A DNA stretch of 64,000 nucleotides from Oceaniglobus trochenteri. Lineage in GTDB: Bacteria; Pseudomonadota; Alphaproteobacteria; Rhodobacterales; Rhodobacteraceae. The notes beneath the pieces are model-generated. The model had not been told where the DNA came from. It saw only the letters and a list, made by a program, of their open reading frames with translations, and did not search any database. The translations under genes and the position numbers were made by a program. The stretch is taken from NCBI RefSeq assembly GCF_020529025.1, contig NZ_JACNMM010000002.1:434001-498000 (forward strand), in the 5' to 3' direction. Below are positions 43,808 through 48,293 of the stretch, piece after piece (position 1 is the first letter of the stretch; every line of letters starts with the position of its first letter).

Positions 43808-43883
43808 GGGGCCTTAGCTCAGCTGGGAGAGCGCCTGCATGGCATGCAGGAGGTCAGCGGTTCGATCCCGCTAGGCTCCACCA
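43808..43883 (+). tRNA. tRNA-Ala (anticodon GGC)
   Basis: 76 bases including an encoded CCA. Acceptor arms GGGGCCT/AGGCTCC, D arm with A-G-C-T-C-A-G, anticodon loop ATGGCAT giving GGC at 43841-43843, T arm GGTTCGATCC. The accessory island begins right after it, so it may be the integration site, although I found no duplicated tRNA 3' end. Confidence 0.95.
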
Positions 43884-44051: not shown

Positions 44052-44591
44052 ATGAGCGACCATTTCTTCGTCGTGACGGGCGGTCCCGGTGCGGGCAAAA
44101 CCAGCCTGATCACCGAGCTCGCCCGCCGCGGCTTTCATACGATCCCCGAATCCGGCCGCGCGATCATCCGCGAGGAGACGGCCAGCTGCGGAGACGCCCT
44201 TCCGTGGGCGGATCGCATGGCCTATGCCGAACGGATGCTTGAGCGCGACCTCCGCACGCACAGCATCGCACAGGCGCTCTCAGGCCCCGTGTTATTCGAC
44301 CGAGGTATTCCGGATATCATGGGCTATCTAAGCCTCTGCAGCCCCCCCGTGCCGCCGCACGTCGCCGCAGCAGCCAAGGCAGCCCGTTACAACGCCCCCG
44401 CCTTTCTGGCGCCACACTGGGACGCGATTTTTCAACAGGATGCTGAGCGCAAACAGACTCGCGCCGAGGCCCAAGCAACTTGCGCCGTCATGCGCGAGAC
44501 CTACTCCTTACTCGGATACGAGATCATGGAGTTGCCTTGTACCGACGTTGGATCACGCGCCGATTTTGTCGTTCAGCAACTGGCAAATTGA
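44052..44591 (+). CDS. AAA family ATPase (AAA_28, kinase-like)
   Basis: 179 residues. Walker A G-G-P-G-A-G-K-T-S at about 10-18; a D-R-G segment near residue 83 may serve as Walker B or substrate site. The family contains small P-loop ATPases of uncertain function, some resembling nucleotide kinases. The C-terminal E-R-K-Q-T-R-A-E-A block recurs in a broken copy at 46845-47003. First gene of the accessory island, 168 bases behind the tRNA. Confidence 0.8.
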   Translation: MSDHFFVVTGGPGAGKTSLITELARRGFHTIPESGRAIIREETASCGDALPWADRMAYAERMLERDLRTHSIAQALSGPVLFDRGIPDIMGYLSLCSPPVPPHVAAAAKAARYNAPAFLAPHWDAIFQQDAERKQTRAEAQATCAVMRETYSLLGYEIMELPCTDVGSRADFVVQQLAN

Positions 44592-44679
44592 CCGTCATTT
44601 CTAGGCGCAGCGGGCTCTGGTGCACAAATCGGCTGAACGCTGTGGCGCGGTCGTGCAGGGAGCTTCGCATGCACATACA

Positions 44680-44708
44680 TTGACATTCGCCCTGACCGAA
44701 CATATTGT
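44680..44708 (+). promoter_or_regulatory. strong promoter upstream of the Abi gene
   Basis: TTGACA (44680-44685), 17-base spacer, TATTGT (44703-44708). This is the best sigma-70 match I noticed in the window. Predicted start near 44714, about 80 bases before the Abi start codon. Confidence 0.7.
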
Positions 44709-44713
44709 TCCAT

Positions 44714-44777
44714 CAACAACACCCCCCAGGCGACCGGTCGAGAGGCCGAGCTCAATACCGGGGGGTTACTTATTTTT
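44714..44777 (+). ncRNA. candidate structured RNA (abiF-RNA-like leader) before the Abi gene
   Basis: The predicted transcript begins with an unpaired ATCAACAACA stretch, then CCCCCC (44722-44727) pairs with GGGGGG (44760-44765). Inside, GGTC-GAGA-GGCC (44736-44747) is a small hairpin with a GNRA-type loop; GAGCTC and CCGGT/ACCGG offer alternative pairings. A TATTTTT run (44771-44777) follows the outer stem like a terminator. A conserved RNA class named abiF has been described next to genes of this protein family; whether this sequence fits its consensus is not checked. Confidence 0.5.
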
Positions 44778-44795
44778 AGGGGTCTGCTCAATACT

Positions 44796-45719
44796 TTGGA
44801 GTTCACGAAGAAGCCTTCAAGCATCGAGCAACAACTACAGCTCCTCATCCAGCGTGGTATGGATGTTGGAGACCATGACACTGCAAAGAAGTGGCTTGAG
44901 ACAGTTGGATATTACAGGCTGAGCGCCTACTGGCTCCCCTTCGAAAAACCTCCAGCAAACGGAAACGCGCGCAGCAAGGTCTTCGAAAGCGGCGCAACTC
45001 TCAGCGCAGTAACCGATCTGTATGTCTTCGACCGACGGTTGCGCGTCTTGGTATTGGAAGCAATCGAGCGTGTTGAAGTGCACGTGAGATCGCGCTGGAC
45101 CTATCATATGGCGCATGCCCACGGTGCTCATGCTCATCTGGATCACCGGCTGTTCTCTGGCTTTTTGAACCATGCCGAACAGCTCGTTCGTCTCGCTCGG
45201 GCCGTGGAGAAATCCGAAGAAACCTTCATTTTGCACCACAAAGGCAAGTACACGGACCCCTATTCCCCGCCCCTTTGGTCAGCAACCGAATTGATGACGC
45301 TTGGCGAACTCTCGAAGTGGTTTCAGGCAACGAAGGACAATTCAATCAAGTCGCAGGTGGGACGTGATCTGGGCTTGCCAACCAAAGAGACCGTGGAAGG
45401 AACTCTACAGGTCTTGGCGCTGACCAGAAACATTTGCGCACACCACGGACGGCTGTGGAACCGCAGGACGGTCAAACGACTGCCCAAGATCAAGCGCTTC
45501 AAGAATGACTTGGTACTGGTGAGCGAGGGCGCGCAAGAAGAGAACGACAATCGGCTCTATAACATATTGGTCGTTCTGCTGCACATGATGGACAAGCAGG
45601 CGACGGACAGCACTTGGCGAGATCGGCTGCGGAGTCTGATCGAAGCGCAATCAGATTCCGACCGCGCAAAAATGGGTTTCCCTACCGATTGGCGTGCACG
45701 ACCAGTCTGGAACGCATAA
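44796..45719 (+). CDS. Abi family protein (AbiD/AbiF type, HEPN RNase-like)
   Basis: 307 residues with a TTG start at 44796, an AGGGG site 13 bases before it, and no better start. The N-terminal F-T-K-x-P ... S-I-E-Q-Q-L-Q-L-L-I-Q-R-G and V-G-Y-Y-R-L-S-A-Y-W-L-P-F (about 37-49) are Abi_2 family hallmarks. R211-N-I-C-A-H216 is a HEPN-type R-x4-H RNase motif. Members cause abortive infection of phages by RNA cleavage or toxicity. Codon use and G+C are visibly lower than in flanking core genes, so it is probably acquired. It is preceded by its own promoter and a structured leader. Confidence 0.85.
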   Translation: MEFTKKPSSIEQQLQLLIQRGMDVGDHDTAKKWLETVGYYRLSAYWLPFEKPPANGNARSKVFESGATLSAVTDLYVFDRRLRVLVLEAIERVEVHVRSRWTYHMAHAHGAHAHLDHRLFSGFLNHAEQLVRLARAVEKSEETFILHHKGKYTDPYSPPLWSATELMTLGELSKWFQATKDNSIKSQVGRDLGLPTKETVEGTLQVLALTRNICAHHGRLWNRRTVKRLPKIKRFKNDLVLVSEGAQEENDNRLYNILVVLLHMMDKQATDSTWRDRLRSLIEAQSDSDRAKMGFPTDWRARPVWNA

Positions 45720-45774
45720 GGCCTGATGGCCCCTTGACCCAGCCACGAACTGATCCGCATAACTTGAGGGTGGG

Positions 45775-45815
45775 TCAGTTCTCGATGGAAAACCTGGATC
45801 AGTTCTTGGTGGAAA
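45775..45815 (+). repeat. tandem 17-bp repeats, possible insertion-sequence end
   Basis: TCAGTTCTCGATGGAAA (45775-45791) and TCAGTTCTTGGTGGAAA (45799-45815), 24 bases apart. GAACTGATCC (45747-45756) is the exact inverse complement of 45796-45805. Repeated ends of this kind are seen in IS21-like elements, but no transposase of that family is present. Confidence 0.5.
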
Positions 45816-45926
45816 TTTGGTAGCTGCTGGACAGCGCGGTATCGCTGCCTTCTGTACGTCCGAAGTCAGGGCGTGTCGCAGCGAAGGTGATCAGTCTCCT
45901 CGGGGATAAGGTGTTGGGGGTGTAAG

Positions 45927-46419: not shown

Positions 46420-46845
46420 TTAAGCCGCTAATCTGAATGCCTCGGCAGGCGTGCGCATGGCAAGCGCCTGGTGAGGGCGGCGGTTATTGTAAAAGGCAAT
46501 CCAGTCACCGATGACGCGCATCGCATGTTGGATGCTTTCGAAGCGGTGGCGATGCACGCACTGCTCCTTGAGCGTCCGAATGAAGCGCTCGACCATGCCG
46601 TTTTGCTGCGGACAGTGCGGGGTGATGAACTCCTGCTTCAGCCCGTAGCTGCGGACGATGGCCGTGAAGTGGTGGCTGGTGAAGACCAGGCCATTGTCCG
46701 AGCGCAGCAGGAACTCGTCTTCGACCCGGCCCAAAGTGCCGAACCTCGCGATCAGGGCATGCTCGAGCGCGGCGCTGGCCGTCGTGGCCTTGCCGGACTT
46801 CGACAGGTGCCAGCCCAGCAGCTCGCGGGTGGGGTCACGTCGCAC
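46420..46845 (-). pseudogene. IS3 family transposase (OrfB) C-terminal fragment
   Basis: 141 residues remain of an integrase-core transposase: L-R-S-D-N-G-L-V-F holds a catalytic Asp and Q-N-G-M-V-E-R-F the catalytic Glu, and N-N-R-R-P-H-Q-A-L the usual C-terminal motif. The N-terminal half with the first catalytic Asp and OrfA are absent; the break at about 46845 joins directly to a fragment of an AAA ATPase gene. Inactive remnant. Confidence 0.85.
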
Positions 46846-47003
46846 TTCCGCAACAAATCGCCACCGCAGTCTCGGAAACCCGCTACAATCATCGTGTCTT
46901 CATGGCTCCTTTCTGGGATGCGATTTTCGAACAGGATGCCGAACGCAAGCAGACCCGCGCCGAGGCCGAAGCGACCTGCGCCGTCATGCGCGAGACCTAT
47001 ACG
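46845..47003 (+). pseudogene. orphan fragment of a second AAA ATPase gene
   Basis: The frame through ATG 46902 encodes about 52 residues matching the intact ATPase at 44052-44591: over the 34 codons 46899-47000, 30 residues are identical to 44403-44504, including D-A-E-R-K-Q-T-R-A-E-A and C-A-V-M-R-E-T-Y. Homology stops at about 47003, and the left edge is the IS3 remnant. A diverged paralogue was broken by insertion and deletion. Confidence 0.75.
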
Positions 47004-47180: not shown

Positions 47181-47205
47181 CATATTGAACCTACAGGAGG
47201 CCAGA

Positions 47206-47595
47206 ATGCCAGTTGCCGTCACATCCCGCGAATCCACCCCGCTCAACGCTGTCGCCCTCAAGGCCTATGCCAATGTCGTCGATGCCTGGGCCCTTGGACA
47301 GAAAGATGCCGCCGCCCTGGCGGACATGTCGGAAAGCACATGGAAGCGCGCCCGCAAACCCGGGTTCGCGGGCGAGTTGACCAAGGATCAGCTTTTGCGC
47401 CTCAGTGCCGTGATCGGGATCTACAAATCGCTCGAACTCTACTTCTCCGAACCGCTGGCGCGAAGCTGGTTCACCCGGCCCAACACCGGACCGCTGTTCG
47501 GGGGCGCCCGGCCCGTCGATACCGCGATCGAGGGCGGCTTGCCGCAGATCCTCGCGATCCGCACCTATCTTGACGCACTTCGGGGCGGCGCATGA
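47206..47595 (+). CDS. Xre/MbcA/ParS family antitoxin
   Basis: 129 residues: an N-terminal Xre-like HTH (about 15-75, with A-A-L-A-D-M-S-E-S-T-W-K-R) and a C-terminal DUF2384 toxin-binding domain (L-Y-F-S-E-P-L-A-R-S-W-F ... G-G-A-R-P-V-D). Partner of the RES toxin that follows, with an ATGA overlap. AGGAGG is a strong ribosome site, matching the need for excess antitoxin. Confidence 0.9.
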   Translation: MPVAVTSRESTPLNAVALKAYANVVDAWALGQKDAAALADMSESTWKRARKPGFAGELTKDQLLRLSAVIGIYKSLELYFSEPLARSWFTRPNTGPLFGGARPVDTAIEGGLPQILAIRTYLDALRGGA

Positions 47596-48293
47596 AACGT
47601 ACCGAGCTTTCGGACCGCGGCCTTGTGCGGCTTTTGCCCGCAACCTACCACAAGCCCCCCGCCCTGCGCGGCCTGGTGGACACCGACGAAGAACTTGAGG
47701 TGCTGGCCGAGATCGAGGGGCTGACCAGCACCCGGTTGCTGGCCGAACGTGGCCGCAACCCGCACCTCGACCCCCGCGAACTGGCCTGGCTGCGGCGCAC
47801 CCAGGATCTGCGCATCTATGGTCAGACCCATGTGAACGCCGCCTTCACCTATACCCGGGCCGGGGGAAACAGGTTCAACACAGGCGAACGGGGGGCCTGG
47901 TATTGCGCCTGGGATGTGCTGGTGTCGGTCTCCGAAGTGGCCTGGCACCGCACGCGCGAGCTTCGCTTTGCCGGCACCTTCGAGGACAGCGCGCGCTATG
48001 TCGAGATTCTGGCCGATTTCATCGGGGTCTTCGACGACATCACTGACGAACCGGGCCATGCCGCGCTGCACCCCGACCCCGAGATCGGATACCCCGAGGG
48101 CCAGAGCCTTGCCGAGAGGTTGCGGCGCGACGGATCGCGCGGGTTGATCTATCCCTCGGCGCGGGCGGAGGCGCCGGGCGGCAACTGCCTGGTCTGTTTC
48201 GAACCCCACGCCATCCAGAACGTGCGCCCCGGCGCCTCGTGGGATCTGATCTGGGAAGGGACGCCGGATTACGCCGTCGTGGCGGTGTCCTGA
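47592..48293 (+). CDS. RES domain toxin (NAD+ degrading)
   Basis: 233 residues. The three name-giving residues are visible: R94 in G-N-R-F-N, E115 in V-S-E-V-A-W and S189 in I-Y-P-S-A. RES toxins (ParT, MbcT, Res) deplete NAD+ or modify targets with it. The gene overlaps its antitoxin by 4 bases. The C-terminus ends 20 bases before convergent tadA. Confidence 0.9.
   Translation: MKRTELSDRGLVRLLPATYHKPPALRGLVDTDEELEVLAEIEGLTSTRLLAERGRNPHLDPRELAWLRRTQDLRIYGQTHVNAAFTYTRAGGNRFNTGERGAWYCAWDVLVSVSEVAWHRTRELRFAGTFEDSARYVEILADFIGVFDDITDEPGHAALHPDPEIGYPEGQSLAERLRRDGSRGLIYPSARAEAPGGNCLVCFEPHAIQNVRPGASWDLIWEGTPDYAVVAVS

Follow-up and report, generated by a model that had tools for sequence, protein, structure and literature searches.

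In classical type III toxin-antitoxin systems such as ToxIN, the antitoxin RNA consists of tandem repeats. The original prediction for the locus analyzed here treated the role of abiF RNAs as little described; that is no longer so, since two AbiF systems, AbiF-RCd22 and PbAbiF, were described in other bacteria in 2025. In the available parts of the report on AbiF-RCd22 from the phi027 prophage of Clostridioides difficile (PMC12373285), RCd22 is transcribed from the same promoter as abiF, and most of its transcripts extend no farther than a terminator. In cis it reduces abiF expression, an effect ascribed to that terminator, and in trans it binds the toxin and neutralizes it. Changes that break its stems abolish neutralization, while changes that preserve pairing do not. 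PbAbiF and its RNA AbiFr were described by Zilberzwige-Tal et al. (2025, as cited in the accessible portions of PMC12373285, PMC12737573, and PMC12804078). One RNA is bound per PbAbiF monomer, and single-stranded bulge nucleotides of the RNA inhibit the RNase (PMC12737573, in part). The same partial source proposes AbiF as the ancestor of Cas13 and its antitoxin RNA as the forerunner of crRNA, and the range of AbiF RNAs therefore bears on the origin of guide RNAs.

The window, which is the whole 64,000-nt stretch of DNA analyzed from the alphaproteobacterium Oceaniglobus trochenteri, contains an Abi_2 gene directly preceded by a structured leader RNA behind one promoter. Judged from its sequence, the core system is of the known AbiF kind, and its hairpin-extended RNA is a variation of that kind. 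The features of the unit are as follows.

44680..44708, + strand: sigma-70-type promoter TTGACA-N17-TATTGT (TTGACA at 44680-44685, 17 nt, TATTGT at 44703-44708)
44715..44778, + strand: AbiF-type leader RNA, probable antitoxin RNA, from 5' AACAACA to UUACUUAUUUUUA (both ends predicted)
44722..44727, + strand: 5' arm CCCCCC of the outer 6-bp stem, pairing with GGGGGG; in relatives the sequence changes and pairing is kept (rows picked for a paired stem)
44729..44731, + strand: GGC of the inner 3-bp helix, pairing with GCU at 44750-44752; covaries in relatives (C-G/A-U and C-G/G-C)
44735..44748, + strand: extra apical hairpin CGGUC-GAGA-GGCCG with a GNRA loop, missing in the Rfam consensus
44753..44759, + strand: single-stranded 3' bulge CAAUACC
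44760..44765, + strand: 3' arm GGGGGG of the outer stem, pairing with CCCCCC at 44722-44727
44766..44778, + strand: U-rich tail UUACUUAUUUUUA, terminator-like and a putative attenuator; a stem and then a T-run are common in leaders
44796..45719, + strand: AbiF/AbiD-like Abi_2 HEPN protein of 307 aa with a TTG start, by Pfam, PADLOC, and 8vz6 matches
45426..45443, + strand: HEPN motif R211-N-I-C-A-H216, of R-x4-H form

The TTG-started Abi_2 protein with R211-x4-H216 was found as predicted. The translated open reading frame matched Pfam PF07751 (Abi_2) with an E value of 3.8e-50 (171.2 bits against a gathering threshold of 25.6) and PADLOC AbiD with 1.3e-67. Its best solved relative by sequence was 8vz6_A (1.6e-37), and a fold search with an AlphaFold2 model (pLDDT of 89.5) returned 8vz6, the "PbAbiF dimer bound to ncRNA," as the sole PDB match at an E value of ≤0.001 (E = 8.4e-17, TM = 0.85). 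The likeness to PbAbiF-AbiFr, drawn from the protein alone, extends over full-length sequence and fold, with R210/H215 corresponding to R211/H216. R211, N212, and H216 were invariant in all 76 distinct full-length homologues. At three related loci (L053:7830, L054:7863, and L100:1830), the Abi coding sequence in the public annotation begins 138 to 171 nt upstream of the conserved start and so takes in the RNA.

The predicted promoter is present in the sequence, and a like-placed promoter-like pair, ending 12 to 14 nt 5' of the stem, occurs in 31 of 50 leaders, a set of mutually related rows that includes the window, compared to 4.4% of mononucleotide-shuffled upstream regions. The recurrence of this position indicates that the conserved RNA starts about where transcription should. 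A promoter and terminator scan performed at chance level, with one promoter in the scan against a mean of 0.9 in shuffles. The predicted leader with a 6-bp C/G stem, a GNRA hairpin, and a T-run is likewise present, at 44722-44778, and its plan is conserved among relatives. Folding of the 66-nt stretch yields −23.6 kcal/mol (z = −2.9), a value equaled or bettered by 2 of 200 shuffles. A stem followed by a T-run was found in 72 of 82 distinct leaders, window included, versus 372 of 1,640 shuffles, a count in which the automatic picker chose a different stem in some rows. The U-run in the window is interrupted, so termination may be weak. A repeat search and a covariance model scan both found one RNA copy in the window, which differs from the tandem repeats of classical ToxIN. 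A piece of the RNA, GCTCAATAC (44750-44767), is repeated across the abi start codon (44786-44803) and reads GCTCAGTAC in some near relatives; it is missing in L008 and was set aside.

Among the closest known systems is AbiF-RCd22 (PMC12373285, in part). Both systems combine an Abi_2 protein carrying R-x4-H with an abiF-type motif in a structured upstream RNA that has a terminator, and both have RNA and gene behind one promoter. RCd22 differs in having two abiF motifs within 88 to 132 nt, assigned to RF03085, whereas the window RNA has a single motif that bears an additional apical hairpin, goes unmatched by Rfam, and comes from an alphaproteobacterial genome. Tandem AbiF RNA matches resembling the two motifs of RCd22 were seen ahead of one abi gene at another locus (L071:1156-1215 and 1399-1470).

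The Rfam abiF covariance model had been expected to match 44710-44790, and this expectation failed: RF03085 gave no match there at the gathering cutoff (37 bits) and none even at an E value of ≤10. There was also no match at an E value of ≤1 in two members of the window clade (L001 and L008), and L006 was likewise without a match. The architecture of the RF03085 consensus is nonetheless present in the window RNA, namely, a 6-bp outer C/G stem, an unpaired A, a 3-bp inner helix, and a 3' bulge starting with CA, as is the position ahead of an Abi_2 gene. The difference lies in the loop, which has 11 nt in RF03085 and a hairpin-bearing insertion in the window. Five relatives at 39 to 43% protein identity (L009, L010, L012, L013, and L030) reached 30 to 32 bits, below the cutoff of 37; in their alignments to RF03085 the loop is extended by 15 nt. 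L028 and L029 exceeded the cutoff. By its architecture, the window leader is a diverged abiF RNA with an extra hairpin within the loop. The Rfam model covers only part of the range of AbiF RNAs, reporting at its cutoff 4 of the 20 viral abi loci that have RNA matches with the model R2 described below (20 of 26 such loci). The AbiF covariance models of Zilberzwige-Tal et al., named in the accessible part of PMC12804078, may already cover the window variant.

Most relatives have the same RNA plan in the same place, and this holds to a protein identity of about 36%. Its shared elements are an AACAA-like 5' end, a 6-bp C/G-rich stem, an unpaired base, a 3-bp inner helix, a variable apical part, a CA-rich 3' bulge, the closing stem, and a U-rich tail. 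For alignment, 54 distinct leaders were anchored, with a fully paired outer stem required and identical segments counted once; 29 loci lacked the anchor motif, nearly all at ≤36% protein identity (L097 at 36%, the remainder at ≤35%), and truncated matches such as L102 were left out of the leader set. Three false anchors (L018, L020, and L044) were removed and the anchor of L031 was shifted, giving 51 rows. When these were scored on the columns of the window RNA, sliding by +1 gave higher values than the proper register (0.253 versus 0.146 and 0.248 versus 0.152), a result of the shifted position of the inner helix in other subtypes. This alignment was replaced by one of 40 rows with its own columns, without the 7 window-clade rows and without L043, L060, L062, and L067, which R2 scored at 19.9, 23.2, 24.5, and 35.3 bits, respectively.

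Across the 40 cores, none of them from the window clade, pairing holds in 88.9% of cells, and there were 28 double-sided changes compared to 6.8 in shuffles. Whole-structure covariation was 0.264 and peaked at zero slide, with values of ≤0.103 when slid. Pairing of the outer stem (alignments A1, A4, and A5) is partly a product of construction, since full pairing of that stem was a condition for including a row. The inner helix is a fairer test because its 3' arm played no part in row choice, and here 94.2% of cells were paired; C-G/A-U exchanges and C-G/G-C exchanges each occurred in 8 rows. Within the window clade, the outer stem is invariant and the 7 sequences share the constant parts AACAACACCCCCCAGGC and GCUCAAUACC-GGGGGG-UUACUU, from which L001 departs at one base and L057 at two; the CAAUACC bulge is constant apart from the final base of L001. 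The apical hairpin varies, with a GNRA cap in 5 sequences and a UUCG cap in 2 (L056 and L057), and 97.9% of cells are paired. The hairpin-extended variant sets fixed parts (unpaired flanks, bulge, and inner helix) apart from free parts. Extra apical hairpins were also seen by eye in other AbiF RNA types.

A covariance model, R2, was built from the 40 rows only, so that the window clade was held out. R2 matched the window at 44713-44778 with 37.7 bits and an E value of 5.1e-7, the only significant match in the 64 kb (next best E value of 8.3). Conserved structure in homologous loci, the absence of which had been named as grounds for refuting the original prediction, was found in the form of this match and of a plan kept in relatives. 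All 12 window-clade loci supplied (L001-L004, L007, L008, L053-L057, and L100, some with identical RNA) were matched with 35.9 to 46.4 bits. Among 61 viral loci chosen by protein similarity alone, several of them near-copies, 26 had an R2 match at an E value of ≤0.001; in every case the match was on the coding strand and no more than 75 nt upstream of the region of protein similarity, and the 379 kb of these loci held no further match at that threshold. R2 matched 13 of 394 genomes of the family, in 10 of them directly before an Abi gene, and 11 of the 21 family genomes with an Abi gene had no R2 match. One match away from an Abi gene (G372) looked by eye like a plain terminator and was rejected. 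Another genome (G102; L112, L116, and L117) has three dispersed abiF-like RNA cores, the same three in a laxer search, and no Abi match to the window protein. A third (G059; L110) has an AbiF-type RNA, yet its genome gave no match to the window Abi protein; the frame behind this RNA may represent a YafQ/RelE-type fragment, which it resembles by eye.

RNA and gene behave as one unit. In relatives with open reading frames 91 to 95% identical, the RNA is 95.5 to 100% identical, and at 58 to 65% the RNA is 71 to 88% identical, while DNA farther upstream falls to background identity (46 to 52%). In three plasmids the single homologous blastn block corresponds to window 44672-45719, from the promoter through the stop codon, and in a fourth plasmid the block is the same plus a few bases at either end. 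Promoter, RNA, and gene travel between plasmids as one block. RNA classes also track protein clades, with 14 class changes on the protein tree compared to 50.7 in shuffles; the tree is a quick one of 76 rows with open forks, and the eight classes (one of them "other") were set by eye. The window class and two others each occupy one side of a tree branch.

The proposal of a two-component RNA-protein unit is thereby supported by homology, as one of the AbiF kind: the conserved RNA at the predicted transcript start, the held-out R2 matches, covariation, block comovement, class and clade agreement, and the fold match to 8vz6 all bear on it. We put the probability that the window unit is an AbiF toxin with an antitoxin RNA, including the proposed working that follows, at roughly 0.85. 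By homology to PbAbiF and AbiF-RCd22, the unit would be a type III-like toxin-antitoxin system, the role of the RNA being taken from these relatives; the window has the same parts as both systems, and from this we infer the same working. Transcription from the single promoter would start at or near the conserved AACAACA, and most transcripts would stop at the stem and U-run to yield an RNA of 60 to 65 nt, while read-through would produce abi mRNA. Such attenuated transcription would supply RNA plus little toxin mRNA. Each subunit of the HEPN dimer would probably be bound by one RNA, with the CAAUACC bulge blocking the R211/H216 RNase site; this inhibitory contact is proposed by analogy to the bulge of the PbAbiF RNA (PMC12737573, in part). 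Phage takeover would lower the RNA, free the RNase, and stop growth.

A leader that acts solely in cis, as an attenuator or riboregulator of abi, and does not bind the protein in trans is improbable. A stem and U-run do stand ahead of the gene, and the cis effect of RCd22 through its terminator sets a precedent, but RCd22 acts in trans as well (PMC12373285, in part). Furthermore, an attenuator has no need of the conserved unpaired flanks, unpaired A, and CAAUACC bulge, and such a role does not sit well with RNA classes that follow protein clades or with RNAs found on viral contigs without the gene. That the hairpin is an ordinary terminator or a chance fold before an unrelated abi gene is hardly credible: the folding energy is only 2 to 3 standard deviations below shuffles and the promoter scan was at chance, but the held-out model matches, the inner helix covaries, and the RNA is more conserved than the open reading frame. 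A guide RNA system of the Cas13 kind could be imagined from the proposed ancestry of Cas13, but we give it next to no weight, as the RNA extends no farther than its own stem and U-run and relatives show no spacer-like variable flank.

IMG/VR was scanned with exact patterns for three forms of the RNA: type B (that of the window), type A/C (canonical/CGC), and type D (AGG). The scan returned 23 type B stretches (L179-L201), 21 type D stretches (L367-L387), and 84 type A/C stretches, of which 80 were read (L202-L281); the reversed type B and type A/C patterns returned none in either case. Searched with a profile of 76 Abi proteins, 7 of the 124 stretches read, all of type A/C, proved to have an abi gene; the other 117, among them all 23 type B stretches, had none in the DNA read. 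At least 300 nt follow the RNA in 110 of these 117 orphans, and at least 1 kb follows in 102. Pfam Abi_2 was also absent from the whole records of 29 orphan carriers (4 type B and 25 type A/C), which may be fragments, and was detected in the one positive-control record among the 30 searched. R2 matched all 73 type A/C orphans and 16 of the 23 type B copies at an E value of ≤0.01. The orphan phage copies are the unexpected result of this analysis and the part most worth following.

The viral contexts were judged by eye, with PHROG names obtained for ten proteins on six contigs. Clustering by context gives 37 groups for the 73 type A/C orphans and 8 for the 21 type D copies. Named neighbors of the RNA are UvsX and a single-strand DNA-binding protein (L201), terminase and portal (L230), tail fiber and internal virion protein (L249), head-tail adaptor and tail protein (L246), DNA methyltransferase (L205), and endolysin (L233). 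An AACA-like 5' flank is kept in 39 of the 73 type A/C orphans and 3 of the 21 type D copies, and the TT 3' flank is kept in 47 and 5, respectively; all 7 abi-bearing stretches keep both.

Type B copies occupy one site. An ssb-like gene precedes and a uvsX-like gene follows the RNA in 20 of the 23, and the other 3 show one of the pair (neighbors by eye except in L201, named by search). The carriers are uncultivated T4-like phages, in 12 contexts at 95% identity; in L201 the RNA lies at 1229-1279. Constant nucleotides of the window RNA are retained at 39 positions (38 in L185), some of them unpaired, and 32 of these were fixed by the search pattern; UUACUU, which lies outside the pattern, follows in all 23. 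Their apical hairpin has nine distinct sequences with 98.3% of cells paired and 7 double-sided changes compared to 2.7 in shuffles and ≤2 when slid; its pair and pair-type counts are not extreme, being reached by 71 and 89 of 500 shuffles. The UvsX of L201 has at least 600 relatives, and among the 80 matches listed a further model, R1, found the RNA at 2 loci, both already in the set, a count that is not a frequency. The other UvsX loci listed, including L286 with a 97% identical UvsX, have other hairpins or none in the gap by eye, and their lack of this RNA makes it a presence/absence trait at one site. The best 30 named UvsX proteins were 58 to 67% identical to that of L201, and blastn found no type B RNA in INPHARED, where named phages gave weak, chance-level matches only. 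In six related phages (L304, L314, L321, L322, L335, and L345), the gap directly upstream of uvsX is filled by a different, larger element of similar appearance (ctacta...tagtag type), for which Rfam gave no match. Rfam gave nothing above cutoff for the other ssb-uvsX RNAs, the lone abiF match (L222) being from another context. The gap before uvsX may be a hot spot for structured RNAs. By eye, CCCCGGGCCTCTGCAACACAATGTTGTATGCCCGG upstream of uvsX in L323 is similar to the GGCC-type AbiF leaders of L033 and L034.

Phage PhiTE provides a precedent in pseudo-ToxI: the phage carries this copy of a type III antitoxin RNA but not the toxin, and the function of the copy has been demonstrated (PMC3475682, in part). 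The orphan RNAs share with it an antitoxin RNA on a phage and a missing toxin; pseudo-ToxI differs in RNA family, in its ToxI-like repeats, mentioned in the accessible part of that paper, and in its demonstrated function, whereas the AbiF-type copies are candidate decoys. In the available parts of PMC9964418, cyanophage S-CREM1 has an abiF sRNA that matches RF03085 (51.6 bits in its Table 4) and whose role is left open; a review, as far as its text was accessible, calls that exact role unconfirmed (PMC12197685). This too is an abiF RNA in a lytic T4-like phage, and it differs in its RF03085 match and in not being tied to an AbiF toxin in the paper. A literature search, in the partial texts it returned, found no account of phage abiF RNAs as decoys or of the hairpin-extended alphaproteobacterial form.

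On the strength of the pseudo-ToxI precedent, we lean slightly towards a decoy role. Phages would widely carry toxin-less AbiF antitoxin RNAs, acquired many times, that silence host AbiF RNases during infection, and the ssb-uvsX gap would be an exchangeable site for anti-defense RNAs. It is possible, though on balance we doubt it, that the orphan RNAs instead serve the phage itself, as transcript ends or mRNA stabilizers unrelated to AbiF. The other hairpins seen by eye in the ssb-uvsX gap of related phages would fit such a role, as would the loss of flanks from many type A/C and most type D orphans when both are kept wherever abi is present. Speaking against such a role are the constant nucleotides of type B, though most of them were fixed by the pattern, the invariable UUACUU, and variation that is confined in type B to the apical hairpin, which covaries. 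If the orphan copies are decoys, AbiF-type defense is under real natural pressure, and anti-defense RNAs could be found by seeking antitoxin RNAs without toxins.

Several minor features surround the unit in the window. A 152-bp piece of an AAA_28 gene (44052-44591) recurs downstream, 44352-44503 matching 46848-46999 at 77% identity, so that abi sits between this gene and its diverged fragment. A tRNA-Ala gene lies at 43808-43883. The roughly 85 bp directly after abi (45732-45817) match unannotated or IS21-element regions of several plasmids, and a fragment of an integrase core is found at 46420-46845 on the − strand. A Pfam search identified an Xre/MbcA/ParS antitoxin (47185-47595) and a RES toxin (47592-48293) near the abi unit.
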